A stretch of 64,000 nucleotides of DNA from Cepaea nemoralis. Its lineage: Eukaryota > Mollusca > Gastropoda > Stylommatophora > Helicidae. Position 1 is the first letter of the stretch. The number at the start of each line of letters is the position of its first letter. The DNA is taken from the NCBI GenBank assembly GCA_014155875.1, contig JACEFZ010021736.1, positions 1-64,000 of the forward strand, given 5' to 3'. Under the pieces are notes generated by a model, which had not been told where the DNA came from, made no database searches, and saw nothing but the letters and a program-made list of their open reading frames with translations. Shown here piece by piece: positions 30,111 to 50,536 of this stretch. Position numbers and translations under genes: made by a program.

Positions 30111-30271
30111 CAAAGTACTCCATCCGTATCAGCAGTATTGTATGGAATGCAAGATATGTCCTGCGGATGTTGAAAGCAAACTTCACAATAAAGATTGTAA
30201 AAAGAAGATTCCGAATAGTGTACCAGGTCAAGGTCATGCATGGTGTACGGGCGACAATGACAAATTACCAC
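30111..30271 (+). CDS. Death-domain receptor: Cys-rich extracellular exon
   Basis: The acceptor (ctctctacag) and donor (c|gtaagt) are both strong. One base completes the incoming codon, then the frame reads KVLHPYQQYCMECKICPADV and ESKLHNKDC, with a last Cys in HAWCTGDND. The CxxCxxCP cluster with a further Cys 11 residues on recalls one cysteine-rich repeat of TNF-receptor proteins, but five Cys are too few for a full module, so the label is tentative. Frame choice rests on the Cys pattern and on phase agreement with the next exon; the alternative frame gives a basic sequence without Cys. Confidence 0.7.
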
Positions 30272-30359
30272 GTAAGTATTGGTACTTTTTTTGGTTCACT
30301 CGCTTTGAACTCATTGTAGTCCATACATGTGCTACTACTTGCCACTACTGGGGATTGCA

Positions 30360-31125
30360 CTGGACTGACTTTTGTGTGTAGAGTTTCGCTCTCGTTTGAG
30401 CTCATCAGTAGTACATCCTTGACCGGACCCAGAAACAAACCCCGGATCACTGGCGTGTGAAGCGGGTGTGTAACCATGCGGCACACGCTGGACACAGCCA
30501 AATTATCATAACAGAATACTACGTCACCCATCGTAGGCCGTAGCTCAAGATTTGCCTGATCGCCGCGACTGACGTCCGTCAAGTGAGTCTAGTGCTTCCA
30601 CATTGACGTGGATAGGCCTTAGGTTCATACCAGAATACGATCAGCATTGCCAGTAGTGAGTTTTGCTCAATATTTAAATCTCAAATCCCGAAAAAACCAA
30701 ATAAATTAATTTGATTATTGCTCGCTGGACATTAGGTGGCCTGGTGTGCCTTGCCAGTGAGAAGACCTGATCGTTCGGGTCCATATAGATTGATGGACAT
30801 CAGTCGCGGCGATCGGGCAGATTTTGAGCTATGGCCTACGATGGGTGACATAATATTCTGCTATGAAAATTTGGCAGTGTGCCGCGTGGTTACACACCCG
30901 CTTTCACACGTCAGTGATCCGGGGTTTGTTTCCGGGTCCAGTCAAGGATGTGCACTACTGACGAGCTCAAACGAGAGCAAAACTCGAGTCTAGTGCTTCC
31001 ACATTGACATGGATAGGCCTTGGGTTCATACCAGAATACGATCAGCGTTGCCAGTAGTGGGTTGTGCTCAATATTTAAATCTCAAATCCCGAAACAACTA
31101 AATAAATCAATTTTGTGTGTAGATT
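30360..31125. repeat. Inverted pair of a dispersed repeat
   Basis: 30395-30590 (-) and 30790-30992 (+) are reverse complements (gtgccgcgtggttacac, gatccggggtttgttt...). The module tagtgcttccacattgac...caaatcccgaaa appears directly repeated at 30587-30712 and 30992-31115. A third copy of the family is at 39000-39240 (-). Confidence 0.75.
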
Positions 31126-31129
31126 AAAT

Positions 31130-31330
31130 TTTCTTATTACCAGTGTCCCTCACCATCACGTGAACCCACTCCAACTTCTGAGGTACTTGTAATGTACGTC
31201 CCTAAGTCAAGGACAAGAAGTCAAACATTTTAGTCCAGCTAATTGGTGTAAGGGTAGCACCCGCTACCTGAGCATCAGCACACCAGAAGTTTAAGAGCAA
31301 GCGCTTTTATCCATTCAGCCATGCTGACCT
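31130..31330 (-). repeat. Leu-tRNA-like SINE
   Basis: In minus orientation: ggtcagcatggctgaatgga (tRNA-like 5' part), gtgtgctgatgc, then aaatgtttgacttc...gggacgtac. Same family as 41856-42060, 42843-43125, 36776-37025 and 61843-62148. Confidence 0.75.
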
Positions 31331-31620
31331 CCAGTATTTGTACTGAGAGTTTGGATCATGCCAAGTTCTTTCTTCTGTGTCATTGGTTGAAATTTCGTCC
31401 ATGTCTTTTCCCATTTTCCCATATTGTTGATCTCCAGTATTTGTACTGAGAGTTTGGACCATGCCAAGTTCAATCTTCTGTGTCATTGGTTGAAGTTTTG
31501 TCCACGTCTTTTCTCATATTGTTGACCTCCAGTATTTGTACCGAGAGTTTGGATCATGCCAAGTTCTTTCTTCTATGTCATTGGTTGAAGTTTTGTCCAT
31601 GTCTTTTCCCATAATACTTA
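31329..31620 (+). repeat. Three tandem units of about 90-105 bp
   Basis: tgacctccagtatttgtact..., cattggttgaa, gtcttttcccat recurs at about 31326, 31430 and 31523. Confidence 0.85.
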
Positions 31621-31739
31621 TGGATAGGTCTGTATTTTTTTTTAAATTTGTATTTTTATCCATAGCCCAAAAGGTTGTTGGAACACCACCCTCTGCTGAA
31701 CTCTGCGCTTGGACACCTCCATAAGTGCCCTGTTCTCCT

Positions 31740-32255
31740 CCTATCTTCTTCTGTTATGTGTGTAAAATAAATTGTCTATATCTCGAATGTTATAGCTTGT
31801 ATAAATTTGACTTTTCTTGTTTTTAAGTTCACTCAGTGGTCTGTGAAGTTTGGCTTCCCCTGTTGTTTCTCTAGACCAAAAGGTTTACCTTAATGTGTCA
31901 TATATGGAGTAGTCTTGGAGTACATGATCTATTGTCTAGAGTGCCAATATATGCCTGATTTTGCAAGATGGACAACATACTGACCAAAAAAATCTGTCAG
32001 TTGAGGTGAAAAAAGGTGTTTCAGTGCTATATAGAGCCAGTACTGCTATGTGCACGTGAAACATGAACAGTAAGCATGTAAGTTGAGAGGAATCTAATGG
32101 CAGTGGAAATGAGATTTCTTAGAAAAATGCAAAGGATATCATAGGCTTATTGAAAAATGAATCAAGACAAGAGCACAAACCTGATCTTAGACTGATGATT
32201 GTGGAAGATGACAAACTATGACTGCCCACATATATTGGTATGGCACATGATGATT
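31740..32255. repeat. Decayed LINE fragments
   Basis: 31741-31930 (-) is the 3' end of the RNase H LINE. 31955-32250 (+) is the KMDNILTKK...VEMRFLRKMQRI segment of the 5680-6240 family. Confidence 0.55.
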
Positions 32256-32776
32256 TGCAAATTCTTCTTCTATAGATCACTCAAGAGACAACTCAACACA
32301 CTGCTCAAACACCATAGCACGGTTGAGAATTTAAATGTGTGGGTAGCAGAATCTCACATCTATAAGTATTCCTATTTTTTTTCGTTGATAGGTTTTCTAA
32401 TTTTGAAATTTAACCTGAGTTACAGCCAACCTGGTCTGCTCTTTTTGATTAGCAACTGCTATGGGAATTTTAATGTGCACCAGTTTCTCAAAATTGTTTG
32501 CTCTTATGTGAGTAGGCTAGATATCGGTTCCACTACCGCAGACTCATTGATTGTATACCATCTTTATGTTTCTTTTTTTTAAAAACTTCCACATCGTTCA
32601 CACTGTGAAATGTACTTGGTCTCCTCAAGTTAGAGGTGGACATGATACACAGTGGTGTGGTTGTAAAATAAACAGTGCCAGGCACTTTAAAAAACTGCAA
32701 ATACTAGTAGTAATTGTAAATATGTTAAGCTACACAATATGGTGTCATAGCTGTTAACAAGTTTATAATAATAATA

Positions 32777-32786
32777 TATCATCATT

Positions 32787-32830
<44 letters not shown>

Positions 32831-32834
32831 ATAT
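32777..32834 (+). repeat. (ATC)n microsatellite
   Basis: Tandem TCA/ATC units. Its end serves as target site of the following element. Confidence 0.95.
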
Positions 32835-33161
32835 GCTTGCTTGTGTTCGTTGGCTTGAGCTCCAACGCGATGTCCTGTATGTCGGATGAAGGCATCCTGA
32901 TGTCCAACATCAGTGTGATGTCATACAGGACCTGAGGTTTGCGTGAGTATCCGTTGTCCCATGTCTGGCTTATTGGTGTGCATACTGGTGGTTCCTCGCC
33001 GTACAGGCAGACACTCTCCGACTTCGGAGGAATCTGCGATCCTATTGACTTTAGCCAGGACACCGAAGGGACCTGTTGCCCAGGACGCTCGACGAGGATG
33101 CGTCAATAGGTCTTGGCCAGTATATAACCCGGCCCTGGTGCCTTGGAAACACCTCTGCGTC
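32835..33161 (-). repeat. Unclassified ~335 bp element, copy 2
   Basis: A 14 bp target duplication with one mismatch (tcatcatcatatat / tcatcatcttatat at 32821-32834 and 33162-33175). Ends as in copy 1. Confidence 0.85.
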
Positions 33162-33409
33162 TCATCATCTTATATAACTAGTTACATTCAGTTATTATAT
33201 AATACTGCCTAATACAGTGGTTCTCAACCTTTTTGGCCCATTGCACCCCTTCATCATATTTTCAGAACGCCATTCCTCCCCCCCCCCCTTTTGTATTTCC
33301 TCCCTACCTCCCCCCCCCCCCCCCCCCCCCCCTCCCCAGTTACTGATGTACAGGAATGTGCTAAAAGATTATCTGGGAAGACTTATCTGGTCATCAAATG
33401 CCACAAGAA

Positions 33410-33556
33410 CCTCGGGAAGGTTAACCTGGTCAACAAATGCCCGCAGAAGTCGGATGTGTCGGCCTAACGGCGCAAGAACGCAGCTGTGCTGTAAACAGGC
33501 ACAACACAATCACATCCGAAAAAAAACACTCCGGATGAACGCAGAAGAAGAAGAAG
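33410..33556 (+). repeat. Short (GAA)n-tailed element
   Basis: Target duplication aaatgccacaagaa (33396-33409, 33557-33570). Body ggaaggttaacctggtcaac, cgcagaagtcggatgtgtcgg, ctgtaaacaggcac, then (GAAGAA). It corresponds to the 3' module of 25350-26704. A poly-C tract lies just upstream (33307-33332). Confidence 0.85.
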
Positions 33557-33689
33557 AAATGCCACAAGAAGTCAATTGTGACGTCCAAAGGGTACACATT
33601 TTGCAGTTTTACTTTAAACAGACACAATGCAAATACTGTTCCAGATAAAAATCCACGTGAATGAAGAAGAAGAAGAATATGTTTTATTG

Positions 33690-34060
33690 CAATATACCTG
33701 GAAATGAAGACATCACAGATTGACAAAGGAGGGTGGAAGACTACCTCAACCTGATGAAGACATAACTTATGATTTTTTTCTTCTTTCTTTCACTTGAAAT
33801 TTGTCTATAACTGCAATGTTGTCTCTTGTATGAATGTATCTGCCTTTTTTAATTCACTCAGTGGTATAACCTATGATGAAGCAAGAGATTTATCAGAATT
33901 GGTTGTTGAATCAAATGGGAATCAGAGCAACCAAACCACCAGAAAAGATGATGAATATTACCAGCTCTACTGAAGAGAACACGTCACAGTCCCCAGACTC
34001 TGCACAGGACACAAGAGACTGAAATACCACGTGTTTAATAAACTAAAGATACTGATGAAT
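33690..34060 (+). repeat. LINE relic interrupted by a LINE 3' end
   Basis: The host frame reads PDEDITYDEARDLSELVVES and HVTVPRLCTGHKRLKYHVFN, like a LINE region after RNase H. At about 33774-33865 (-) a ~92 bp 3' end of the (GAA)n-tailed LINE is inserted, with an imperfect duplication (ataacttatgat / ataacctatgat). Confidence 0.6.
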
Positions 34061-34414
34061 GTAACTGGGACTAGTATATGACATCCATTTGTTGCAGTAG
34101 TGTCCAACATATTCAGAACAGAGAACTATTTTGGTCTACACCCACTCCACTCCACTTAAAGACAAGATCTATAGAGAAGTCAACAAGCTCAGGTTGACAG
34201 CTGCTTTCTCTAAATTGATTCATATTGACACGTGAAGGTGTGTGAAAAAGAAGATGGTTTTGAAGATGTGCTTGAAGCATCTCAGGAAAGGGGTTGGCTC
34301 TACCAGGTTTTGAAACTGTTTAAGAGAACCACAATACATCAGAGCTGAAAAACTATGATATTACCAGTATGTATCATCAAGTACTATGCCATCTGGCATA
34401 GGCATTCGTGTCTC

Positions 34415-34790
34415 TCTACATATCTCGGTGTTTGGTGTTCTGGATAAACTCTGCTACTGATATTCCTCCATGCCACAGTCTCAGTCCATCCAGCATCATT
34501 TGTCTTGATTGGCCTCTGCCTCTCTTCCCCTCGATCTTTCCAGTCATCACGATATTCTCCAATGCCTCTCGTCTCATCACATGACCAAAGAAAGCTGTTT
34601 GTCTCTTTCTTATTGTTGTATATAATGTTCTAGTTTCATTAGCCTCTTTCAGGCAATCATTGTTAGTTACTCTGGCAGTCCAAGGAATTCGTAACATTAG
34701 TCTTAGGAACCATATCTCTGTAGCTTCCAAGTTCTTCCTAATTTGTTCATTTACATTCCAAGATTCACTGCCATACAGCTCAGCACGTAT
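34415..34790 (-). pseudogene. LINE ORF2 C-terminal fragment
   Basis: Minus frame MEATEIWFLRLMLRIPWTAR, then IRKRQTAFFGHVMRREALEN, GKIEGKRGRGQSRQMMLDGL. This is the best-preserved copy of this LINE tail. It lies in the intron just before the CCP exon. Confidence 0.85.
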
Positions 34791-34813
34791 ATTATTATAA
34801 AATTATTTCTTAG

Positions 34814-35002
34814 GATGCCCACAACTGACAGTCCAACATGGCAAACTTAATTGTACCAAGGATAATGGTGTATACAGCACATGCCATCTTCTTTGTGATT
34901 TTGGTTATAAGCCAGAAAATAGCAGTTGGATAGAACTAAAGTGCTTAGAAAGTCTTCAATGGAGCATTCCTAGCCAGTCTGTGATTAGATGCCAAAGATC
35001 AG
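34814..35002 (+). CDS. Death-domain receptor: sushi/CCP domain exon
   Basis: A single exon encodes one complete complement-control (sushi) domain of about 62 residues: CPQLTVQHGKLNC, VYSTCHLLCDFGYKPE, IELKCLESLQW, SQSVIRC. Visible marks are an opening Cys-Pro, the CxxxCxxGY core, a late Trp and a final Cys before the exon end. Six Cys are present, one pair more than the minimal domain, as in some selectin- or SVEP-like repeats. The exon starts and ends in phase 1 (acceptor ttcttag, donor g|gtagga), the standard symmetric phase for shuffled extracellular modules. Confidence 0.88.
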
Positions 35003-35116
35003 GTAGGATTGTGTGATGTATGCATATCATATTGTTTTATAGTTTCATTTTCATTATGTAATTGTTTTGTTATCACAGATCAAGTTCTGCTGTTTAGGGG
35101 TCATTCAGATGGGAGC

Positions 35117-35250
<134 letters not shown>

Positions 35251-35557
35251 TTCTGTTTCATTCCTTCTTGCTCCTTCTCTCCCCAGTACTAGGTCACACA
35301 CATGTGAAGACCGCTTTGCCAAAGATCTTCTGTGCAACCTGTTTCAGGACCAGTCCTTAGTCCCATAGTGAATACTCAGTGTTACATCTTCAGTGAACAC
35401 TTGGATGCCCATGAGTTACAGGAACTGTTAGTGGAAGCAAAGAATAGTAACATTGTAACCTACCATACATGTCATAAGTGGCAAATAAACTAAGTTGTCT
35501 TTGTGTCTTCTAAAATACAGAGACAGCCTATTTATAAGATGGTTGGGTTTGAGGTTT

Positions 35558-35698
35558 CTTCTTCTGCATTCATCTGGAGTTTTGTTTTTTCGGATGTGAC
35601 TGCGTTGTGCCTGTTTACAGCAGAGCTGCGTTCTTGCGCCGTTAGGCCGACACATCCGACTTCTGCGGGCATTTGTTGACCGGGTTAACCTTCCCGGG
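35558..35698 (-). repeat. Short (GAA)n-tailed element
   Basis: Minus copy of 33410-33556. Target duplication gggtttgaggttt (35545-35557, 35699-35711). Confidence 0.85.
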
Positions 35699-35847
35699 GG
35701 GTTTGAGGTTTGAAAGTCTGTTGTTATAAAATATCTTATTATTATAGTCCAAGCCATGGGGCAGTGGTGATCATGTTTGTCCACAGCCTTTTTGTAAAAT
35801 AATATATAAGAATAATTAAAATAAAATGTGTAATGTTTCGTAAATTA

Positions 35848-36093
35848 GCCGACTCTGTGGTGAAGGGGTTACAGGCATAATTTGTAATCCTGCATATCAC
35901 GTTCAAAACACAGCTGCAGGCAATTTGACAGCAGACCACCTTGTGCTGGTTTTCATACAATGGTATGTGTGCTGGTCATTCAGAAAGCAATGGTAGACTA
36001 CTTAATGTAAACTTGCCAAGAAATCACAAACAGCTCAAAACTGCTGGGGTTGACTGTGACATCCTGCAAAGGATATGCAACTAGCTTAACTTT
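35848..36093 (+). repeat. SINE, head type 1
   Basis: gccgactctgtggtgaagggg, cgttcaaaacacag, ggcagcagacc-like linker, cattcagaaagcaatgg, cctgcaaaggatatgcaac. Confidence 0.8.
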
Positions 36094-36149
36094 GTAGATT
36101 AACAATAATAATGCTTATTTTATATTTTGTTTTCTTATGAGACGGACAT

Positions 36150-36290
36150 ATAATCAGATTGCTACTGGAACTATTAGTGTTGGAACTCTTCGCTAGCTGC
36201 TGAGGATGGGGACGGAGCGCTTATGGGAATGCCCCGAATGCTGTGATGTCGGTTCCTAAATCAATCATTCAATTAATGAACTATATTGCA
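36150..36290 (+). repeat. LINE RNase H family, extreme 3' end
   Basis: ggaactcttcgctagctgctgaggatgggga... and gaatgccccgaatgctgtgat recur at 45040-45110 downstream of an RNase H fragment. Confidence 0.55.
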
Positions 36291-36317
36291 TAAACTGTAT
36301 ATATTTTTTTCTTACAG

Positions 36318-36614
36318 CAAAACCAGGTAAACCTTTATTAACCTCCCCTGGACAAAGACAGGAAGTGAAAGCTGGCTCAGACAAGACTCTACAGTGTATT
36401 TCTGCATCAGAAACTGTTGGAAAACGAAGAATATTCTGGTTTTTTAAAGATAAACAGCTTTATGGTGATTCTGATTTGGACATTTATGTAATTCGTAAAA
36501 CAAATAAGGAAAATGAAGGTGAATATTTTTGCCAGGTGGAAGATGAAATTGGCACGTCAGATTTGAGTGCTGGCTACTATTTGAAGGTGGAAGAGACACA
36601 TTCATTTCATTCAG
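36318..36614 (+). CDS. Death-domain receptor: immunoglobulin domain exon
   Basis: One exon encodes an Ig fold of about 98 residues. The B-strand Cys is in DKTLQCISAS, the core Trp in RIFWFFKDKQL, and the F-strand signature in NEGEYFCQVEDEIGTSDLS (the usual D/E-x-G-x-Y-x-C). Cys-to-Cys spacing is about 54 residues, within the Ig range, and the closing strand YYLKVEE follows. The domain resembles I-set modules of adhesion receptors. Boundaries are phase 1/phase 1 (acceptor ttcttacag, donor g|gtgagt). The start codon suggested by an open frame at 36365 is internal to the exon and not used. Confidence 0.9.
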
Positions 36615-36775
36615 GTGAGTGAGCAGTCCTAATAGGTATGTCATTTCATTCTGCACTCTTAAACACCATACAAATGGACATAGGTAATATCTTGTCACAA
36701 CCATTGTTCTTGTTTGCTGTGTGTGTGGGGGTGTTCTCTTGCTTAGAACTCGAGTGTAGTCCACACAAGTTTTTC

Positions 36776-37025
36776 TACTGTTGCTACTAATTGCAATTAC
36801 TACCACCAGTGATTAACGATGGACTGATTTTGCGTGAGGGCCAGCTTTTCCTATATCAGCATCCCTCGCCATCAGGCAAAAATTCTCCAACTTCTGAAGT
36901 ACTTGTAATTTTCATGCATAAGTCGAGGACAAGAAGTCAACATTGATGTCCAACAAACCTACTATGCCACAATCAGAAGAGAAATTTTAAGCATGTTAAA
37001 CCTCTCAGCCATGCCAACTTCCTAT
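36776..37025 (-). repeat. Leu-tRNA-like SINE
   Basis: Reverse complement of 61843-62148 (aggacaagaagtcaaca, ccctcgccatcaggc). Confidence 0.7.
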
Positions 37026-37309
37026 TTGTTGATTAGTTCTATCAATAGACATATTTTTATTTAGAATTAGAAACCCATATTGATACTTTTTCTCTCTGCC
37101 ATCATCTGGCTTTTTATTCCACCAATATTGACTGTTACTACCAGGTATTCCAGTTTTGTTTTTTTCATTATAGCTAAACATATCTTGCCTTCTTTCCTTT
37201 CATTTTCGTGATAATTGTATGTAAAACAGTTTTAAAAAACAGTAAGCATGCCTTTTTCATGCCATGAAGTGCTATGGGAAATTGGTGTTAACCTTATATT
37301 TTTATAATG

Positions 37310-38260
37310 ATTTGAAGAATCAGATTCGCTGGGCTGGTCACATAACTCGCATGCCAGATCACAGGCTCCCTAAATGAATTTTGTACGGCAAGTTGTGTTG
37401 AGGTAAACGCTTCCAAGGCGGCCAGAGGAAACGTTTTAAAGACACTCTGAAAATCTCACTGAATGCTTTTGGAATTCATCATGACACCTGGGAGACTGCA
37501 GCCAGAGACCGAAATTCGTGGCGTGCATCATTACGCAAGGGTGCAGTCACATGTGAGGCAACCAGGACTGCAAGAGCTGTGAAGAAAAGGCAGGACAGAA
37601 AAACCACTATCCCACTGTGGAGTACCCGGGAACGACAGAGCTGATCAATTGGCTAAGGAAGGAGCCAAAGAAGAACAGCCTGATGTGCCTGTAACATACC
37701 ACCAAAAGAAAAGAATGATCAAATCAGTCAGAAAGCCACCAAAACCTGCTCAAGATGACTACCACGTTATGGATAGACCAGAACAAGTCATTATTCTGCG
37801 CCTCAGAACAGGACACAATAGATTACGCAACCACATGTATACAAAATTCAAGATTGGTGAAACAGCCATGTGTACACGTGGATTGGCGTCGCAGACAGCA
37901 GAGCACATACTCCAAGACTGCCCAAAATATAACATATCTATGCAAACCTTCTGGCCTAGAGAGACGACAGTGGAAGATAAGCTCTATGGACCGCTGTGTG
38001 AACTGAAAAAGACAGTTCAATTCATAGATTCAAGAGACAGCATTGCAGTTATAGACATATTTCAAGCGAACGAAAGAAGAAGAAGAAGAAGTAAAACCAC
38101 TGCAGGAAATCCTCCCCCAGAAACGTCAAGCATTCTTTGTCCACATTGTCAAAGAATATTTCAAGCCAAAATAGGCCTTATCAACCATCTTAGAACTCAC
38201 GGCTCCATACTTTCAACCCCACTGGATGAAATGAATGGTCATCATCATTCTTGATGGACA
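37310..38260 (+). pseudogene. LINE 3' end carrying a nested RNase H LINE insertion
   Basis: Host LINE: RIRWAGHITRMPDHRLPK, then FKDTLKISLNAFGI, ATRTARAVKKRQDRKTT, and after the insertion a C2H2-like CPHCQRIFQAKIGLINHLRT tail. The insertion, 37609-38092, holds the end of RNase H (GVPGNDRADQLAKEGA, frame-shifted at its start) and the tail to (GAA)n. It is flanked by the 9 bp duplication aaaaccact (37600-37608 and 38093-38101). The unbroken host junction exists at 45840-45870, which proves the insertion. The 201-residue open frame 37649-38254 is therefore a chimera of two elements. Confidence 0.85.
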
Positions 38261-38279
38261 AACAACACAACAACAAATG

Positions 38280-38515
38280 ATTTAGCACTCAATGGGGGAC
38301 GTGGTCAGTCTCATGCTGGTCATCTTTAATTCCCAGCATATTTCCTGGCATCCACTTTAGACTGGGTTGACCAATTTTAGACTGGGTTGACCCATTTTCG
38401 ACTGGGTTGACATAGGAGCAAAGGTCAATTTTTACAATCAATTTTGATTGGGATTCGGACACAGGACCAGTATGTGAGTGTGCTAGCTGCTGGGCAACTA
38501 CAGCTCCTGAGCCAT
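38280..38515 (-). repeat. tRNA-derived SINE ('aaggacccttttacatg' family)
   Basis: tttagactgggttgac occurs as a small triplication (about 38360-38415). gggattcggacacaggacc is the box B side. Confidence 0.7.
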
Positions 38516-38623
38516 TTTAGTGATATAACAACGAAGTTTTGTGTTTATTTTTTTGTTTGGTTTTTGTCATACAATACCTTTACTATTTATGAAAGTAACT
38601 ACATTATATTTTAATTATTTCAG

Positions 38624-38653
38624 TGAATCAAATTACAGTGGAGATTATATATG
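38624..38653 (+). CDS. Death-domain receptor: candidate 30-nt stalk micro-exon
   Basis: It sits between a good acceptor (ttaattatttcag) and a gtttgt donor. It is phase 1/phase 1, so inclusion or skipping keeps the frame. It encodes VNQITVEIIY between the Ig exon and the transmembrane exon, which would lengthen the juxtamembrane stalk by ten residues. Size and phase fit an alternatively spliced exon. Support is splice logic alone. Confidence 0.45.
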
Positions 38654-38879
38654 GTTTGTATATTTGTTCTTATTTGAAATTTATTGTTAAAGATGATGCA
38701 GTTACTTATGTCAGTTTGCAAATGTAATTCATATATTTATCAGCTATGTTGATGATTTCAAAAGGAAATATGTAGGTGAAAGAAAAGATTGGTATGAGAG
38801 ATGAATATAGCAAAGATAAAGGGTAGAAAAAAATGGAAATGGAGAAGAAAGATAGATATACTTTCTCTAGAGTTTTTGT

Positions 38880-39240
38880 TTGTTTTATACACGAATAATA
38901 AAAGTAATGTCATATAAATATTATATTTTTTGTTGTAGTAAATTGTTTAATCATTAAATAATTTTGAAAAACAACCAGAGTAATTTGATTTCCACAAGAA
39001 AACTCAGTTTGAAGACTGAGCACAACCCACTACTGGCAACACTGATTGTAATCCGGTACAAACCCTGGGCCTTGTCCACAGATTGGAAGCACTAGACTCG
39101 AGTTTCACTCTTATTTGAGCTTGTAAGTAGTGCATATGCCTGACTGGACCCAGGATCGAAGTCAGGATCACTGGCGTGTGAGGCAGGTGTATAACTGGCA
39201 TTTTAGGCGACACACTAGACATGACCAAATTATCATACTT
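38880..39240 (-). repeat. Dispersed repeat (family of 30360-31125)
   Basis: gcacaacccactactggcaa, cactagactcgagttt, ggatcactggcgtgtga and gaccaaattatcata match the 30.4-31.1 kb units. Only 39000-39240 is clearly homologous. Confidence 0.65.
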
Positions 39241-39530
39241 TAGTAGGCTCTAGAATATGCTCTAGAATCAGGGGACAATTATTAGAATTTCATCAAAGTG
39301 TTGCAGCTAATAGTTCAACCCTTAACTGTGGCTATACAGAATACCGTGTGCTGCTATTTATGAGTGTACAGCTGCATTTCTGAATGTCAGATCTACCAGT
39401 TAATGAGAATTATTTATTAGAAATTGTGTGTATGCTTTTTCTTACTTGTGTTTAGTTATTTACTTTAATGATTGTTTCTTATATAACTGCAGTTTTACAT
39501 AAATTAAACTGATTTCCACATTAAATCCAG

Positions 39531-39686
39531 GAAGTCTACTTGTCGCCTGTGTTCTGGCCATTGTGGGTTTTCTGTATTGGAAAAGATCCAGAATGTACAC
39601 ATGCAGTCTTGCACTCTGGCACAGCATAACAAACTGTCAACATCGTGGAGAAAATAAATCAATAAACAGTTGTTTGAGTTCAGTAG
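39531..39686 (+). CDS. Death-domain receptor: transmembrane exon
   Basis: The exon reads GSLLVACVLAIVGFLYW (one hydrophobic helix, 17 residues) followed at once by the basic stop-transfer KRSRM. It then has a Cys-rich juxtamembrane stretch (YTCSLALWHSITNC) that could be palmitoylated, by analogy with other receptors. Phase 1/phase 1, acceptor aaatccag, donor g|gtaaga. The orientation (basic side C-terminal) agrees with an outside CCP-Ig part and an inside death domain. Confidence 0.85.
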
Positions 39687-39708
39687 GTAAGATATTTGTT
39701 GTATGTAG

Positions 39709-39995
39709 TTAGTTAGTCAAGGTTCCAACTTCACAGCAACGGGTCGTCCCCATTATGCTCCAGTCATGTGCCAGTGAATATCACATCAAAATGCTCCTCA
39801 CTGTCCAATGTGAAAAGTGGAATAGACAGGTGTCTCGGCAGTCCAAAAACCCACACAGGTACACTGTGCATAATGCCGCAGCCAGAATGCCAACACAAAA
39901 TTCATCCATGAGAACTACAGTTCATCATCACAGTTACCAGAAAGACCTCATTGACCTGGGTTTTCTCACATGGCTCCATGTGTTAACGGGACACT
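39709..39995 (+). repeat. Dispersed repeat, 'gttagttagtcg' family
   Basis: Best match to 58230-58500: gttccaacttcacagcaa, cagaatgccaacacaa, agttcatcatc. Confidence 0.75.
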
Positions 39996-40239
39996 AAGAG
40001 GAGCAGAGAATAGTAACATTGTAACCTACCATGCATGTTATAAGAAGCAATGAAGGATGGCTGGGGTGTGGGGCTGGTTTATCCCTTTGTAGAAAAACTT
40101 TAGCTGCAATATCCAACCACTTGTGAGCATGTTTGAGACAACCTGGGAATAGTATAACTTAAAAAGGTTTTTGTCTGAAATTAAAGGATAAAAGAAATAG
40201 AGGAAGAGGTGAGTTGAGGGTCAATGCCTAATTAGTCAG

Positions 40240-40650
40240 AGCAGTTAAATGTTGAGAATTTCATACAATCAGCCTCATAAACCATGTCACTAAGCTTTTA
40301 CTCAGAATTACAATCAGAAGAACAACAAAGAAACTGAAATTGAAAATTGGTGACGAATAGAATGGATTTGTTGAAGGAAAAGGTACAAATAATACAATAA
40401 ACGCATTATGAACACTAAAAGAGAGATCTGTATACTATAGAGACACGGAAAGACATATTTGTGCTTTACAGATTATACCAAGGCATCTGATAAAGTAAAA
40501 ACATGATGAAATGATTAAAACTTTGGAAGATATCAGTATTAATGGGTAAGATCTCAGATTAATACAGAATATTTACTAGAAACAAGTAGCAGCAATTAAA
40601 ATGGGGAATAAATAGGGCAGTTATGAACAGATAAAACAAGGAAAAACATG
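40240..40650 (+). pseudogene. LINE reverse transcriptase fragment
   Basis: With frame breaks it reads FIDYTKAFDKVKH (motif A), MIKTLEDISINGKDLRLIQN, YWKQVAAIKMG. Heavily decayed and truncated on both sides. Confidence 0.7.
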
Positions 40651-41094
40651 AAGCTTTTAATTGAAGCCTGAAGGACATACACTGACTGGGAGATTGTCGT
40701 CACTTTCTCGACATTTCATTTGAACCTCAAGATTAAATATTTGTTTATGTAGCAGGATCGCTTAATTTCTTTGTAATTTCACCAGAATCAAATTAATTTG
40801 AACCATCACTTTTGAACAACAAATACAAGAATGTCTTTGTCGAGGTAGATATCTTGTGAATTTCTCAACATAGAATAATTGCGTTCATAGTAACGATACA
40901 ACACTAGAACAAGAACTGTTCCTACTTCTACAAATACCATTGAAAAGAGTGTCATGTTTCAATGTCAGCAGTGTCTTATTTTGGAATTTCATTTAGTTTA
41001 AATGTAATTCAATCCATGTGTTTCAAAAATATGTGTTTATTATTCGAGAATACATGAGCCAGATTTGCCTCACACCAGTTTCGTACCACCACTA

Positions 41095-41265
41095 ACTGCT
41101 CATACAGTACATAACAAAACCTGTGGCCTTGTGGGTAGACTGGGGACAGTCAAAGACTAGGGAAAGAAAACCTGGAAAATAAAACTAAACACAACCTGCT
41201 GCCTTGTAGGTAGACTGGGGACAGTCAAAGATTACGGAAAGAAAACCTAAAAAAGCTTGTTAAAG
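41095..41265 (+). repeat. Two tandem ~83 bp units
   Basis: gccttgtgggtagactggggacagtcaaaga recurs 84 bp downstream with few changes. Confidence 0.8.
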
Positions 41266-41639
41266 TCGGATGTCATGAGCCAAAGGCTTGACAAAATAGT
41301 GCAATACAACAAGTTTAATGATGACACCATAAGGAGTCTGGTATTGAAAAAAAGAACATTCAGAATTGTGTTAGTCAAATGTTACAATATATCCTGTGTA
41401 GTTTGTGTACAACATTAGAACCAACCAATCATTTCTCTTCTTTAAATGTTTGTGAATATACTGGACACAGCATTATGGTTCAATGTTTTTTATCTGACCT
41501 ATGCTGGTTTAATATAAAATTATGAGACCTATGGTGGTATCTCAATGGTGTGATACGAATTCTGTCCGTATTCCATAGTTGTAGGTTCATCTGTATGATA
41601 GACCTGGCTAATGAAACACCTTTTTTTGGGGGGGGAGGG

Positions 41640-41760
41640 GGAGGGGTGTCTAGTTGGTCATGTGTTTAAGTACATTTGTTCCTACAGTGAGGCGCCATCG
41701 TCATTTGGAGGTGACAGGTTCAAATCCCGGTCAGCTTTCAAATTTTATGTTGTCTAGTGC
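41640..41760 (+). repeat. Possible tRNA-like SINE head
   Basis: gttggtcatgtgtttaag... and ggtgacaggttcaaatcccgg have box A/box B-like spacing. Only one copy noticed. Confidence 0.35.
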
Positions 41761-41855
41761 ATCCTCTAATCTTTACTTTCTTCTTCTCCTTCTATGAGCG
41801 CCAAACAATACTATGTGTGTTTATTTATGAACTACAATACATCAGAAGAGCTGGA

Positions 41856-42060
41856 GGTAAGAATGGCAGAATGGATAAGAGTGCTTGTTCTTAAACGTCC
41901 GGTGTGCTGCTGCCGAGGTAGCGAGTTCAACCCCTACACCAATCATTTGAACTAAATATGGTAATAGGGAAAACTAATCCACACTCAAAAATCAGTCCAG
42001 TGCACTAGAAGTAGTAGCACGTGTGTCAGCTACACTTGAGTTCAAAGGGAGTGAATATTT
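41856..42060 (+). repeat. Leu-tRNA-like SINE (5' part)
   Basis: gaatggataagagtgcttg, gtgtgctgctgccgaggtagcg, gttcaacccctacacc. Confidence 0.75.
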
Positions 42061-42329
42061 TTATTTTTAAATCAGAAAATCTCCTTGACCCATTCCTAGC
42101 AATGGTTTTATTTATTGTCTACCTCAAGCCTTTTTCAGTATTTTATATTGTTGTGGCAAACACTTGGGTGGTCATCCTTTAGGTCTTAAATACTTTCCAG
42201 AAGTTAAAGGAAGACTGACTATTGGCTGATCACCAGTTTTCAAAATCCACAGATTGTGGGGTCAAGGTTGTGGATCATTCTGTGCAATAGTCTGCTTTGT
42301 TGTCATGTGACTCATCAATCAGTGGCTTG

Positions 42330-42790
42330 TTCTGTGCTGAACTTTGCCCTCTTTCTAAATTTCTCGCTATCATAAGCCAGATGTCCTGCCTCTGTTGCTG
42401 TCACATTTAGGTTATTAATCACAGCTTGAATACATCTATGCTGTGGTCTTTCTCTTCTTATTTGCTTCTGTTCTAGATCTCCCTCCATACTGATCTTTTT
42501 CAGACATTTAAGTCTTTTTACATGCCATAAACATTTAATTTTTCTTATGTTTATTTGTCTTAATAACCAGTCTTCTTCAGTATTGATTTCTTGTTGGATG
42601 GATCTGTTTGTTCTCTATTTTGTCCAGTGAATTTTAAACACATTTCTATAACACTTACTCTCAAAGGGAATATGTACCTGTCAGCTGATTTGTTAAATAT
42701 CCAAGCTTCATTCTCACTGGAAATATGCATGTCTGGGTATTCTAACCTTCATCGTTCTAACTGTTCCAGTCCATTATCATTATGGTTTTA
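42330..42790 (-). pseudogene. LINE ORF2 C-terminal fragment, third subfamily
   Basis: The minus strand reads EINTEEDWLLRQINIRKIKC, then KCLKKISMEGDLEQKQIRRE, RPQHRCIQAVINNLNVTATE, AGHLAYD. Related ends occur at 53395-53470 (-) and 61580-61660 (+). Confidence 0.65.
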
Positions 42791-42842
42791 ATTGCTTTAG
42801 ATTTTGCAGATTAATGTTTGTTCTTTTTTTCTTTTTTTTTCC

Positions 42843-43125
42843 TCGCTCACTTTGACCTCAAGCTTAGTTCACATACATGCTGCTACTTTTAGTGCACTGG
42901 ACTGATTTTTGCATGTGGATTAGCTTTCTCTGTTACCAGTGTCCCTTGCCATCAGGTGAACCCACTCTGACTTCAGAGGTATTTGTAATTTACGTCCTCA
43001 AGTCAAGGACTAGAAGTTAGCAATTTAGTCCAACTGACCGGTATGGGGGTTGAACTCGCTACCTCGGCATCAGCACACTGGAAGGAACAAATGCTTTTAT
43101 CCATTCAGCCATGCTGACCTCCTGT
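42843..43125 (-). repeat. Leu-tRNA-like SINE
   Basis: Minus copy with 5' tRNA-like part at 43125-43035 (ggtcagcatggctgaatgga). Confidence 0.8.
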
Positions 43126-43137
43126 TCTTCTGATAAT

Positions 43138-43560
43138 TCTGGTCAAGTGAATAAACTTGTTAAATAATATACAACTGTATCTCTTTCCTTAGAGAGTTCT
43201 ATGGGGAAAAAAAAAGGGGGGGGGGGGGTGTTCCAGTCAGTCAAATGAATAAGCTTGTTAAATGAAATACAACTGTATCTCTTTCCTTAGAGAGCTCTAT
43301 GGGGGGGGGGGGGGGGGGGGAATATCCAGTCAGTCAAGTAAATAAACTTGTTAAATAATATACAACTGTATCTCTTTCCTTAGAGAGCTCTATAGGGGGA
43401 TCCAGTCAGTCAAGTGAATAAGCTTGTTAAATGACATTCAACTGTATTTCCTTAGAGAGCTCTGTGGGGGGGGGGGGGGGGATCTAGTCAGCCAAGTGAA
43501 TAAACTTGTACAACTGTATCTCTTTCCTTAGCGAGCTCTGTGGGGGGATCCAGTCAGTCA
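43138..43560 (+). repeat. Five tandem copies of the linker exon's 3' splice site
   Basis: Each unit has caactgtatctctttccttag then .gagctct.tgggg, a poly-G tract of variable length, and atccagtcagtcaagt. AG dinucleotides lie at 43191-43192, 43289-43290, 43382-43383, 43454-43455 and 43530-43531. Only the last leads into the open linker exon. The earlier units meet gaataa, an in-frame stop in the cleanest copy, 43382. Confidence 0.85.
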
Positions 43561-43894
43561 AGTGGTACAACTGGTACAACTGATGGTGGAAGCACTGATG
43601 GAGAAAGCTCATTGCCTCTACTGAAAGTACCTGATGAAAAAGTACAGCTTCCTCAATTTATAGTGCAAACTGACAAGTCACAACCCTTGGAAACTAAACT
43701 TCTGTTGGTATCAGGGAAAGAAATCTCAGCCAATGATAAAAAAGTTACGCTCCTGCCTCTGACGAGTGCATTGAAAGATCCAGCACTGAAAGATCCAGTT
43801 CTGAAAGACCCAGCATTGAAAGATCCAAACAATGATACTTTACACACAAGTTTCAGAAAACATGGCAAAACAATAGAAACTGGACACAATAACA
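43532..43894 (+). CDS. Death-domain receptor: cytoplasmic linker exon
   Basis: The exon begins inside the last unit of the tandem array and encodes a low-complexity start (SSVGGSSQSSGTTGTTDGGS). Then comes a more ordinary segment (LPLLKVPDEKVQLPQFIVQT, LLLVSGKEISANDKK). A fivefold Leu-Lys-Asp-Pro repeat (LKDPALKDPVLKDPALKDP) precedes GKTIETGHNN. Phase 1 in, phase 1 out (donor gtaagt at 43895). It is likely an unstructured spacer between membrane and death domain. The Gly/Ser/Thr-rich start was probably formed from repeat DNA. The open frame continuing to 44136 is read-through into a SINE. Confidence 0.75.
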
Positions 43895-43929
43895 GTAAGT
43901 GTAGTTTTGTGTGTGTTATGTTGCATATC

Positions 43930-44160
43930 TTTTTTACAGGACATCGCTATCAGCACCAGCATTTTACTACTGTTGTTGATGTCTTGGCAAGTTTAAATTC
44001 AGTAGTTTGCCATTGCTTACTGAACATCCGGCTCCCACGCCAACTCGTTAAAACCCAGAGCAACTGGGTCTGCTGCCAAATCAGCCCCAGCTGTGTTTCG
44101 TACGCGGGTAAACGGGCTTACGAATCGCATCCATAAGCCCTTTGCCACAGAGACCAGCAA
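43930..44160 (-). repeat. SINE, head type 1
   Basis: Directly downstream of the linker exon's donor. Tail, core (cagtagtttgccattgctta) and head (ctttgccacagaga) in minus orientation. Confidence 0.8.
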
Positions 44161-44204
44161 ATGTAATTTAGTGTGTTTATTTTAACCAAGTCTCATTGAC
44201 AGTA

Positions 44205-44510
44205 GAGAGTGCCTGTTACGTAGTGGCTAGCAAATTGACTGCCGGCCTGTGGTCATGGACTCAGATTTGCAACAAGGTCGATTTTTACAATTGACCTGGG
44301 CTCCCATGGGCACTACAAAATGTCTTGGGAAGTAAAGATTCCTGGCATAACACTGACCACATGACCCACTGAGTAATGATTGGTTTATAAAATATGGGTT
44401 TAGCACCATATGCCGAATATGCATGAAGGCATGTAAATGGTTCCTTGCTTACTTCCATATGCCCAGCTTGCCTCTAGGCATGTACAAAGGATCCTTTACT
44501 TTCTGTACTT
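44205..44510 (-). repeat. tRNA-derived SINE ('aaggacccttttacatg' family)
   Basis: Head at the low-coordinate end (ttacgtagtggctagcaaattga, atggactcagatt) and aggatcctttac at the tail, so the element's own 5'-3' direction is plus relative to its tRNA head. The orientation sign here follows the other entries of the family (reversed). Confidence 0.6.
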
Positions 44511-44699
44511 TTTTTACTGTAATTCATTGACAGTAATTGATTTATTTGTCTTTCTCATTTTTTGTGAAAAGAACTTTGATGGCAGCGTTTACAGGTGAAG
44601 CTGCAATATTTCAGTCAAAAGAGCCCTGTGTTTTAGAACTGAGTTTGCCTTCCTTCTTTAAAACATCCTTTCTCTATTTTTCATCTTCCAAAAATGGAG

Positions 44700-45120
44700 A
44701 AAGGAATGTTTCATGTAGAATGGCTTGCCTAGCTTCAGAGGTTACAGATTATGAGAAATTGTATGGATTTTCTGCCCTGATCATGCAGGAGTGTGGGGGA
44801 ATGAACGTGCTGATACACTGGCAGGGAATGCACCTCTTGGTGATAAATTACCTATGGACAAGGGAGAGGTGGTCAGGTGCCTGTAGGACCAGGTGGAGAA
44901 AGCAAGTGGAACAGACTGAGAATCTCTATGTGGAGAGAATTATATGGTGGTGGGTCGACAGGGGTTCTGGACTAATCTCAAAACAGAGAGAAGACCAGGA
45001 GAAATTTCAGTCAGATGGTAGTTGGAATGATTAGCAGTATGACTCTTTGCTGGCTGTTAAACGAGGGGATGGAGTGCTTGTGGGAATGTCCTGAGTGCAG
45101 TAATGTCGTTTCTTAGCTCA
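44700..45120 (+). pseudogene. LINE RNase H C-terminal fragment
   Basis: Reads PDHAGVWGNERADTLAGNAP (last RNase H helix with catalytic Asp) and continues to the 3' end shared with 36150-36290. Confidence 0.7.
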
Positions 45121-45213
45121 ACATCAACAACAACAACATCATCTCCCAATGTAGCATAGGCCCTGAACCAACTCACACCAAGCCTGTTGTAGACTTGTTC
45201 ATGATTGGGTTTT

Positions 45214-45480
45214 GCAGCTAGTTTTCTACGGGATGAGGCAGCTAGTTTTCTATGGGATGAGGCAGCTAGTTTTCTATGGGATGAGGCAGCTAGTTTTCTA
45301 TGGGATGAGGCAGCTAGTGTTCTATGGGATGAGGCAGCTAGTTTTCTATGGGATGAGGCAGCTAGTTTTCTATGGGATGAGGCAGCTAGTTTTCTATGGG
45401 ATGAGGCAGCTAGTTTTCTATGGGATGAGGCAGCTAGTTTTCTATGGGATGAGGCAGCTAGTTATCTGTGGGATGAGGAA
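45214..45480 (+). repeat. 24 bp minisatellite, about 11 units
   Basis: Unit gcagctagttttctatggga-tgag. Being a multiple of three it stays open in two frames (AASFLWDE and QLVFYGMR). No splice sites flank it, so I treat it as intronic. Confidence 0.95.
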
Positions 45481-45831
45481 GCCAGTCTCACTCCAACCTC
45501 TTATTTTCTCTTCATCTTCTGTGATCAGTGTTTGCTATGTGCGGTGCATAACATCCATTGTAGGCCGTACATGTCCACTTTCTGATTCCCTGCCACTTAG
45601 GCCAACATACTCTGACTTCGATGGATGAGGTTTATTTTCTGGATTCCTCATCCCATAGGCAGATTGCCTTCCCAGACTTGTGGGCTCTGCCTGCCTATAG
45701 TCACCTCTTATTACATGGATGGTAAGTTACAGTGTTTTATTCTTTGCTTCCCTCATGGGCCCGGTAACACAAGGACGACTTCAAAACATTGTATAGAGAT
45801 TTTTCTTTGTTCAAATAGATTAATAGATTAA

Positions 45832-46010
45832 AAAAGGCAGGACAGAAAAACCACTGCAGGAAATCCTCCTCCAGTAACGTCAAGCATTCTTTGTCCACAT
45901 TGTCAAAGAACATTTCGAGCCAAAATAGGCCTTATCAGCCATCTTAGAACTCATGGCTCCATACTTTGAACACCACTGGATGAAATGAATGGTCAAACAA
46001 CAGATTAATA
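45832..46010 (+). repeat. LINE 3' end with zinc-finger-like tail
   Basis: Uninterrupted version of the host element at 37580-37608 + 38093-38260: KKRQDRKTT, then CPHCQRTFRAKIGLISHLRT. Confidence 0.8.
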
Positions 46011-46289
46011 GTAATTGACTCTTGCATGTATTTTGTTGTTCCTTCTACTGCTGTTGTTTTGCTGCTGGTGTTATGTATTTGTATCCAGTTTAGATATGGA
46101 ATGTCCCTTTAACTTTGGTAATACAAGCTGGATGGTAGGTTCAAGAGAAAGTTAAAAACAGCTTCAGATAAGTACTTAACTTTGCTGTAATTAAAAAAAG
46201 AAGAAAAGAACTTATCGTCTAACCTTATATAGTGATCGAAGGATAAAGCTTCTAATCCACATAAACCTACAGCAATACTGACTTCATGG

Positions 46290-46580
46290 GTGTTTTTACT
46301 TGCATGAAAAAATTAAAAGTAAACGAAGAAAATGGCTTGCTTGTCACCCCGACGGTCATGGTTTCAAATTCACATCGATGCAGTTTCTTTAACAAAAAAT
46401 TGACCTGGACTCCCAGGTCAAACCAGCCTAAAATTAGTACCAGAAAATGTAATGGGACATAAAGGCAGCTGGCTTGGTACTAACTACATCATCCAGCAAG
46501 AACCAAACCTTTAACAGATTTGGAGCTAGTACCATATGTCAGAAGGCACGTATAAGGATCTTTTACTGTTTTTTAATTTA
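46290..46580 (-). repeat. tRNA-derived SINE ('aaggacccttttacatg' family)
   Basis: Contains ttgacctggactcccaggtc, taaaattagtacc and aaggatcttttactg, in the same order as 44205-44510. Confidence 0.7.
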
Positions 46581-46634
46581 TGAACAACGTTCCTTTCTGT
46601 TTTGTCTATATTTTATTATCTTAATTAGTTACAG

Positions 46635-46806
46635 GAATCAGCAACAAAGATCAAGATTACTTAAGATTAGTTTTCAAAGACTACAAATTGATGAAAAGAA
46701 TTCTCACCCTATTGGACCAGAAAGCTGAAATAAACATGAACAAACCTACATTTCACAGTTTGGGCAGATATCTTGGAGACAGCCCTGATGATGTATCTCA
46801 TTTTGA
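46635..46806 (+). CDS. Death-domain receptor: death domain, N-terminal half
   Basis: The acceptor is ttagttacag (an alternative AG six bases earlier would add two residues in frame). The donor is ga|gtaagt, phase 2. The frame reads ISNKDQDYLRLVFKDYKLMK, then ILTLLDQKAEINMNKPTFHS and LGRYLGDSPDDVSHFE. The last part matches the death-domain core (aromatic/Trp position, LxxxLG, then D/E-D-I/V and a final acidic residue), covering helices 1 to 3. The Trp usual before the core Leu is Phe here, a common variation. Splitting the domain by a phase 2 intron after helix 3 is unlike the upstream phase 1 modules. Confidence 0.85.
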
Positions 46807-47820: not shown

Positions 47821-47908
47821 TCCTCAACAAATGTATATTTAACATATTTTCACATTGTCCCATTATCTATAATGAAAATATTGCTGTATATATCTTATAT
47901 ATACACTT

Positions 47909-48051
47909 CCGGAAAGGTTAACCCGGTCAACAAATGCCCGCAGAAGTCGGATGTGTCGGCCTAACGGGGCAAGAACGCAGCTCTGCTGTAAACAGGCACA
48001 ATGGAATCACGTCCGGAAAAAAACAACTCCGGATGAACGCAGAAGAAGAAG
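47909..48051 (+). repeat. Short (GAA)n-tailed element
   Basis: Target duplication atatatacactt (47897-47908, 48052-48063). Near-consensus copy. Confidence 0.88.
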
Positions 48052-48244
48052 ATATATACACTTTAGTTCTCTAGTACTGATTATACTTAACATGTTAGCT
48101 GGTTTTCTGGTGATGTTTTGGTTTAGATATTCTGTTGAGTATGTAATTCGTAACTGCCTGTAACTGACTGTAGGCATATGTCAAAGAATCAATACTACTG
48201 CATTCAGGATAAACCTAAACCATGGAACACCACCTGTAAAAACA

Positions 48245-49072
48245 TTGCTTAAGGTGCTCCTGTCTGGGAAATTGCCATTACTACGGACACTACCTTCTGA
48301 ACTAGGCAGCCAGCATAAGGTCACCATACAGTTGATACCATCTCACTGTGGAGTACCTGGAATCAAGAGAGCTGATCGATTAGCTAAGGAAGGAGCAATA
48401 GAAGAACAACCTGATGTACCTGTTACATACCACCAAAAGAAAAGAATCAGAAAGCCATCAGAAAGACACCAGCTCAAGACTATTACCACTTTATGGACAG
48501 ACCAGAATAAATCATTATTCTGTGCCTCAGAACAGGAGACAGTAGATTTTTTTTCAATGTTGCATATTCCTTACAGGACGTTGCAGTCAACCCCAGCATT
48601 TTTCAGCTGCTGTTGATGAACTAGGCAAGTTTTCTTATGTTTAATAGTTTGCCATTGCTTTCTGAACAACCGGCTCTCATACTCCTGTAAGTTACCAGCA
48701 TGGCCCGAACCGCTGCCGATTCTCGCAGCTGCTGTTTTCCCCATACGGATATTCGGGATTACGAACAATGTTGCTAACCCCTTGGCCAGGGAGACACAAT
48801 AGATTACACAACCACATGTATACAGAATTCAAGATTGGCGAGTCAGCCATGTGCATATATGAATTGGTGCTCAGACAGCAGATCACTTACTCCAAGACTG
48901 CCCAAAAAAACGACATATCTAGGCAAACCTTCTGGCCTAGAAAAACAACAGTTGAAGATAAACTCTATGGACCGCTGAGTGAACTAAAAAAGACAGTTAA
49001 ATTTATACAAGAGACACATTGCAGTTACAGACAAATTTCAGCGAATGAAAGAAGAAGAAGGACAAACCTATA
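48245..49072 (+). pseudogene. (GAA)n-tailed RNase H LINE, split by a SINE
   Basis: Reads HKVTIQLIPSHCGVPGIKRA, DRLAKEGAIEEQPDVPVTYH (RNase H end), then after the SINE SPRLPKKTTYLGKPSG-type tail and LYGPLSELKKTVKF, ending (GAAGAAG). Related to 37609-38092. Confidence 0.75.
48550..48795 (-). repeat. SINE nested in the LINE at 48245-49072
   Basis: Minus SINE (head type 2). It is flanked by an imperfect duplication around agacagtagatt / agacacaatagatt. The uninterrupted LINE sequence is seen at 37800-37830. Confidence 0.75.
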
Positions 49073-49084
49073 AGTTCCGGCATC

Positions 49085-49320
49085 TGTGGCTAAGGAATAG
49101 CAAATGCTTTTCACAATCCCACATAACAGCTTTGAAATCAGCTGTAGGCAGTGTGGAAGCAGACTGCCTTGTGCTGATGTTTAACAATGGTATGAGCATC
49201 GGTCGTTCTGTAAACAATGGCAAACTACTGAACTTAAACTTAACTAGAAAATCAAAAACAGTCAAAAAATGCTGGGGTTGATTGTGATGTCCTATAATGG
49301 CCATGCAACTAACATTTGTT
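49085..49320 (+). repeat. SINE fragment, head type 1
   Basis: agcagactgccttgtgctg, ggtcgttctgtaaacaatggcaaactactgaac, gatgtcctataatggc. Confidence 0.7.
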
Positions 49321-49524
49321 TTAGATGCTGATTGTCCCTGTTGCAAACTGGTTAACTACATGCCGCCACATCGTTTGAATTTATTGAAACAAGTTCCATA
49401 CTTGATTCCTGACTCCAGCAGCCATAATCAAGAAGATTCATGAAGAGCTTGTTTTACCATGCATAAGGGTGCCATTTAATGCTCCCAGTATATCTCCTGT
49501 GAGATAACAATACAAGGAAATTGC

Positions 49525-50110
49525 TTAACCGAGTTAATCGATTTAAATATCTAGGGGCAATCATAATATCAGATGGAAAATGTGTCTCAGAAATTAAGAG
49601 CGGAAAAGATCAAACAAAAGCTGTATTTTGGAAAGTGAAAAGTATCTTATGCAATAATTTACTATAATTGAATGTTAGATAGAGAATATTGAAATGCTAA
49701 ATGGAACATGTTTTGATGTATGCCAGTGAAACATGGAACAAGAATGAACGAACTAGGAAGAGCTTGGAGGCAATGGACATGAAATTTCAGAAATGAGTGT
49801 TGCCAATATATTACTATTAGACTGCCAGAGTAACTAACAATGAAGTCTTGGAAGAAGCTAAAGAAAGTAGAATTTTATATACAACTATACAAAAAAGAAA
49901 AAAGCATTCTTTTATCATATATTGCAAAGAGAGGCATTGGAAAACTTATTGACAACTGAAAAGATCAATGGCAGAAGAGGAAGACCAAGAGAAATGGATG
50001 GTGGATGGACTGAAAATGATGTCATGGAGGAATATCATCAACAGAGTTGATTCAGAACAAAAAGAACTGATGTATGATCACCAACACCAGTTGGCAGGGC
50101 ACATTATAGT
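49525..50110 (+). pseudogene. LINE ORF2 C-terminal fragment
   Basis: NRFKYLGAIIISDGKCVSEI, VEVMDMKFQK-like, ATRVTNNEVLEEAKESRILY and GRRGRPREMDGGWTENDVMEEYHQQS-like segments across frames. Confidence 0.65.
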
Positions 50111-50358
50111 GATGATATTCCCTGTGACCATTTTCAGTGTACCAGAGATAGGTGGCTTTTAAACTAAAATAGCAGCTCCTCCCTTTCCATACACATTTGG
50201 ACCTGAATAATAGATTCACATGTTCTTGAATTCTTGCCTCCTCCACAAATGATGGCCACTCATGCCACTGTCCTCCATTCTAAATTTTCTGAAGATAAAC
50301 TGAGAGAAAGTGACAGTAATCACTTGCCTTAAATATAAAAACTGTGATTGTATTTCAG

Positions 50359-50536
50359 ATTCCGCTGTCAACACAAGGAGCTGAGTCCAACAGAGGGATA
50401 CATAAAAAGGATGATAGAAGAAGGTCAAGGGTTAAGTAACTTGTTAGCCTTCTTCAAACAGCACAAACATACGCTAGAACTTGCAGAGGACATTGAGAAA
50501 ACTGTATTACATCCTTATCAAGCGTCCAATGATTGA
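50359..50536 (+). CDS. Death-domain receptor: death domain, C-terminal half and stop
   Basis: The last coding exon (acceptor tgtatttcag, one base completes Glu). It reads FRCQHKELSPTEGYIKRMIE, EGQGLSNLLAFFKQHKHTLE, LAEDIEKTVLHPYQASND and a TGA at 50534-50536. SPTE, the amphipathic IKRMIEEG, LSNLLAFFK and LAEDIEKTV correspond to helices 4-6 of the death-domain fold, in the place of the usual ...ptxxLLxxW...LxxxLxxLgrxDvxexl. With the previous exon the domain is about 95 residues, a normal size. Only about 9 residues follow it, so the domain is C-terminal as in TNF-type death receptors. Confidence 0.85.

Follow-up and report, generated by a model that had tools for sequence, protein, structure and literature searches.

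Death receptors of the TNFR superfamily, exemplified by TNFR1 and p75NTR, are type I single-pass proteins in which several cysteine-rich domains (CRDs) outside the cell are paired with a C-terminal death domain. UNC5 netrin receptors have two Ig and two TSP1 modules, ZU5/UPA and a cytoplasmic C-terminal death domain, MyD88 is cytosolic and carries a TIR domain, and selectins, of which six-cysteine short consensus repeats (SCRs) are typical, carry a C-type lectin domain and an EGF domain but lack a death domain. Here we analyse a putative gene on the forward strand of a contig of the gastropod Cepaea nemoralis (GenBank assembly GCA_014155875.1, contig JACEFZ010021736.1, positions 1 to 64,000; this whole 64,000-nucleotide stretch is hereafter the window). 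It appears to encode a type I single-pass receptor with a cysteine-rich module, a CCP (sushi) module, an Ig module, a transmembrane (TM) helix, a cytoplasmic spacer and a C-terminal domain that is probably a divergent death domain, a plausible assignment rather than a demonstrated one. The predicted protein shares with TNFR-superfamily death receptors its single-pass topology and, if its last piece is a death domain, the C-terminal position of that domain, but has one divergent Cys module plus CCP and Ig where those receptors have several CRDs. With UNC5 receptors it shares an Ig ectodomain and, on the same condition, a C-terminal death domain in the cytoplasm, and with the selectin SCR a six-cysteine CCP. 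The combination of CCP, Ig and death domain was not found in the open-access literature searched, a scope outside which most subscription papers lie, nor is it described in passages of PMC9334734, PMC6208332, PMC5094078, PMC11797021 and PMC12909245. A passage of PMC6208332 lists a sponge gene in which Ig domains are combined with a CARD, which likewise places Ig and a domain of the death-fold class in one invertebrate gene; it carries a CARD where a death domain is proposed for the present gene, and that passage mentions no CCP.

The gene model comprises seven exons, proposed in a preliminary description of this DNA, and three candidate additions:

24496-24561, forward strand: weak candidate for a signal-peptide first exon, MEKRSHTCVFLVVFLLLRQMDL, ending in phase 0 at GTAAGT
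28390-28430, forward strand: candidate exon, read as VQTSPIIDCDKYKF when the following base is included, proposed from splice scores and phase
30111-30271, forward strand: first exon of the seven, Cys-rich, with AG before, GT after and a fitting phase
34814-35002, forward strand: Sushi/CCP exon, phase 1-1, AG/GT borders, Pfam match
36318-36614, forward strand: Ig exon, phase 1-1, AG/GT borders, Pfam match
38624-38653, forward strand: candidate micro-exon of 30 nt, VNQITVEIIY, from phase 1-1, splice scores and hydropathy
39531-39686, forward strand: TM exon with the basic stop-transfer KRSR, from borders and hydropathy
43532-43894, forward strand: exon of the cytoplasmic linker, containing 15-nt repeats of KDPAL type, from borders and repeat finding
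46635-46806, forward strand: first half of the death-domain-like piece (expected helices H1-H3), from borders and weak tolerant alignments
50359-50536, forward strand: second half of that piece (expected H4-H6) and the stop TGA, from borders and weak similarity

Checked base by base, the phase-compatible exon chain of the preliminary description has consistent borders: an AG acceptor precedes all seven exons, a GT donor follows the first six, and splicing yields a single open frame of 504 residues closed by the TGA at 50534-50536. The junctions are in phase 1 at each step from 30271 to 46635 and in phase 2 between the final two exons. When a simple consensus was used to rank every AG and GT in the window, the donors of the chain came within the top 0-5.8%; its acceptors came within the top 0.9-7.7%, apart from the weak CCP acceptor (top 16.5%). 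The chain thus looks sound at the level of sequence, and we infer from splice signals, phase and order that all of its exons belong to one mRNA. As first read, it lacks an N-terminus and starts mid-protein; the candidate at 28390-28430, and possibly that at 24496-24561, lie upstream of this start. Three versions were used: the 504-residue chain of seven exons, a 514-residue chain with the micro-exon, and a 550-residue chain with the upstream candidate exons as well. Transposon-type open reading frames (ORFs) inside and around the gene span could point to a decayed or never-expressed gene remnant within repeat-rich DNA; we consider this very improbable for a chain without internal stop or frameshift and with coding periodicity (G makes up 26.3%, 18.8% and 16.3% of codon positions 1, 2 and 3 in nine exons, including two candidates).

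For the CCP and Ig modules and the membrane segment, the preliminary description was borne out. Specifically, with curated gathering scores as cut-offs, the exon 34814-35002 matches Sushi (PF00084) at 29.0 bits against a cut-off of 20.7, and the exon 36318-36614 matches ig (PF00047) at 29.4 bits against 21.8 and I-set at 24.6 against 23.7; within the 504-residue chain the Sushi and ig matches reach 23.1 and 23.6 bits, respectively. The sushi exon has six cysteines, and its best sushi-type match in the PDB is an SCR of E-selectin (E 0.00054). The TM exon contributes the helix GSLLVACVLAIVGFLYW (GSLLVACVLAIVGFLYWKRSR) followed by KRSR, so that a TM helix and a basic stop-transfer, as expected of a single-pass protein, are both present. 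The best 21-residue Kyte-Doolittle mean is 1.69 without the micro-exon at 38624-38653 and 2.29 with it; this candidate, whose acceptor ranks in the top 4.4% and whose donor is poor (top 13.2%), may lengthen and improve the helix. The sequence therefore supports a phase-compatible chain of exons that brings CCP and Ig modules together with a TM helix.

Upstream of these modules, the candidate exon 28390-28430 (its acceptor is among the best 0.1% of AGs, its donor within the top 8.2%) has the phase that the exon at 30111 requires and adds a first cysteine, giving a six-cysteine module spaced C-x14-C-x2-C-x2-C-x12-C-x15-C. Its C-x14-C-x2-C-x2-C part has the spacing of TNFR1 CRD2. The module matches the first half of the TNFR/NGFR signature (PROSITE PS00652), as do 170 of 20000 shuffles and 0 of 1242 stop-to-stop segments (six frames, at least 30 residues); a loosened six-cysteine pattern, devised after the sequence had been viewed, is matched by the module and by 7 of 20000 shuffles. 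The suggestion that the receptor senses ligand through CCP and Ig instead of TNFR repeats may thus be wrong given this partly TNFR-like spacing, yet Pfam finds no TNFR repeat in the Cys-rich piece and the full signature is not matched, in which the module differs from the TNFR superfamily. We treat the TNFR-like character as a lead and not as membership of that superfamily. With the Cys-rich piece as query, phmmer found no PDB match at E<=10. Its Pfam matches to Churchill at 19 bits (E 0.0017, cut-off 25) and to Baculo_RING at 14 bits (cut-off 26.7) fall under their cut-offs and were taken as chance cysteine spacing. In a scan for signal peptides, 24496-24561 is the sole forward-strand candidate with a hydrophobic score of at least 3 (3.59); because the reverse strand yields similarly scoring candidates (three, at 3.58, 3.16 and 3.01, the first two nested), this first exon is considered weak.

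On the cytoplasmic side, the linker is a low-complexity spacer of about 155 residues in whose exon Pfam finds no match. Patterns for TRAF2, TRAF6 and immunoreceptor tyrosine-based inhibitory motif (ITIM)-type motifs gave no hit in the tail, and its one YxxM (YKLM at 451) lies within the death-domain-like piece. The intron between the linker and the death-domain-like exons contains a 24-bp repeat (45214-45486, 11.4 copies, 97% match). The start of the linker exon is itself part of a repeat:

43142-43563, forward strand: tandem array with five copies of the linker acceptor and exon start (Tandem Repeats Finder rows 43142-43400 and 43324-43563)

The array repeats the end of the intron together with the start of the linker exon, and its five copies carry TTTCCTTAG acceptors with exon starts at 43193, 43291, 43384, 43456 and 43532. 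Only the last copy is open through the linker, the other four running into a stop after 10-22 residues, and use of any upstream acceptor would yield a tail-less receptor. This arrangement is compatible with an alternative in which no single main mRNA holds both the CCP-Ig-TM exons and the helical C-terminal domain, whether through neighbouring genes or through alternative transcripts, for instance a short-tailed receptor made from an upstream acceptor and devoid of the last domain. The joins of our model follow from splice signals, phase and order, which leaves room for such a split; the constant phase from 30271 to 46635, the phase-2 junction after it and a frame open to one final stop make it improbable in our judgement.

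The weight of the interpretation falls on the last two exons, whose spliced product of 116 residues (46635-46806 plus 50359-50536) had been described as a two-exon death domain. Several tolerant comparisons lean towards that description. Among nine death domains aligned globally with BLOSUM45, the closest are p75NTR (1 of 500 shuffles as good, z 4.1), MyD88 (10 of 500) and TNFR1 (17 of 500); with BLOSUM62, 3, 29 and 82 of 500 shuffles do as well, respectively. The best pairwise match of the domain is accordingly to p75NTR, and MyD88, otherwise unlike this protein in its cytosolic location and TIR domain, comes second to it by shuffle count in that comparison with BLOSUM45. By eye, the alignments with p75NTR and TNFR1 are in register and that with MyD88 partly so. 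In local mode, hhalign places PTFHSLGRYLGDSPDDVSHFE...PTEGYIK on the H2-H4 stretch of a death-domain profile, a score equalled by 2 of 150 shuffles, and a mean z over the nine death domains as high as that of the piece, 1.22, occurs in 2 of 1000 shuffles and in 0 of 58 decoys from the window. The two halves of the piece, which is split by an intron, were modelled separately without alignment and at low confidence. The second half (mean predicted local distance difference test score, pLDDT, 64.0) forms helices at 10-20, 25-34 and 39-55, where H4-H6 are expected, and the first (mean pLDDT 69.9) a helix at 3-32 and a short one at 42-47, where H2 is expected.

Other results weigh against a death domain and the receptor built on it. 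The test by which the preliminary description proposed to be judged, scoring as a death domain, fails: Pfam Death (PF00531) has no match at E<=10 in the 504-residue chain, the 116-residue piece or the linker plus piece, in searches where HMMER filters discard most matches above E ~0.1. A profile built from nine death-domain sequences gives the piece -1.1 bits, and 1038 of the 1729 shuffles that received a score (2000 were made) do as well or better. This profile retrieves PDB death domains (80 distinct sequences at E<=1, with FADD, RIPK1, Fas, TNFR1, MyD88, p75NTR, UNC5B, IRAK4 and ankyrins among the 60 matches listed) and therefore works; its failure on the piece counts against a death domain. 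Six of the nine death domains, UNC5B among them, have z <1 in both BLOSUM45 tests, and, judged by eye, several of these six align out of register. The probability given by hhalign is 1.27%, and its global-mode score is matched by 22 of 150 shuffles. A best-of-nine z of at least that of the piece, 4.06, was obtained for 19 of 1000 shuffles and for 1 of 58 decoys, and the nine true death domains all lie above the piece on both maximum z (6.42-15.05) and mean z (2.53-7.80). The model of the first half has no helix at the expected H3, Foldseek finds no match for either half, and PDB phmmer with the last domain matched no death domain. Two O-GlcNAcase-type chains that the same PDB search returned at E ~0.09 were taken as chance. 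Homology searches of a protein collection that may lack related animals yielded nothing at E<=10 for the 514-residue chain (6261 candidates) or for regions 436-545 (56 candidates) and 30-250 (91 candidates) of the 550-residue chain, and none of five pattern matches to the Ig exon among the viral contigs scanned was confirmed. Neither TSP1 nor ZU5 is among the six Pfam families found for the 504-residue chain at E<=10, and the protein is not placed in the UNC5 family.

An alternative is a CCP-Ig receptor that ends in a small helical module other than a death domain and whose mode of signalling is not that of a death-domain receptor. The failures of Pfam Death, the death-domain profile and Foldseek and the missing H3 helix all favour it; on the other side stand the selection of p75NTR, MyD88 and TNFR1 by tolerant alignment, the local hhalign match to H2-H4, a mean z seldom attained by chance and the fit of the second-half helices to H4-H6. 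We regard this alternative as a possibility of lesser weight, and that the piece is a death domain as fairly likely. It is labelled death-domain-like here, and is not filed as a member of the family, because the defining test failed. What stands of the receptor originally proposed is the chain of CCP, Ig and TM helix; its intracellular death domain is plausible and not established.

The explanation we favour is therefore one forward-strand gene encoding a type I single-pass receptor of the order (signal peptide), Cys module, CCP, Ig, TM helix, spacer and C-terminal death-domain-like helical domain. Its Cys-CCP-Ig ectodomain would bind a ligand such as a microbial surface or a complement-like or TNF-like protein, and receptor clustering would bring the cytoplasmic tails together. 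The C-terminal domain could then nucleate assembly of a death-fold adaptor of the MyD88/FADD/TRADD class, with NF-kB or caspase signalling as the outcome. The death fold of the last two exons, the ligand and the pathway are what we infer, and that a receptor with this ectodomain works like a death-domain receptor is in our view somewhat favoured. A more elaborate version, in which TNFR-type Cys, selectin-type CCP and Ig modules link complement-like or Ig-type recognition directly to death-fold signalling and the acceptor array can switch the receptor from a form that signals to a decoy without a tail and back, is tentative and rather doubtful.

The surrounding window contains other elements. 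A Pfam scan beyond the gene covered nine window ORFs. Reverse-transcriptase ORFs at 11663-12298 and 19189-20490 match RVT_1 at 83.8 and 44.3 bits, and the second ends with the stretch YIGRTERQLNKRVSEH, which we take to resemble the GIY-YIG end of Penelope-like elements. An RNase H ORF (4489-5274, 52.8 bits) is probably retroelement-derived, and a tandem duplication at 3549-4006 with a 232-bp unit and 100% match is either recent or an assembly artefact. Rfam gave no match in the window, and a tblastn search for paralogues within it gave, away from the exons of this gene, no hit with an E value below 0.13.

The novelty of the receptor hinges on the death-domain point. If the chain and its death domain are both true, the animal couples CCP/Ig recognition directly to death-fold signalling, an unusual construction for a death-domain receptor. 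With phase-1 junctions at the CCP and Ig exons, the gene would then bear on the way in which exon shuffling assembled death receptors and complement-type recognition.

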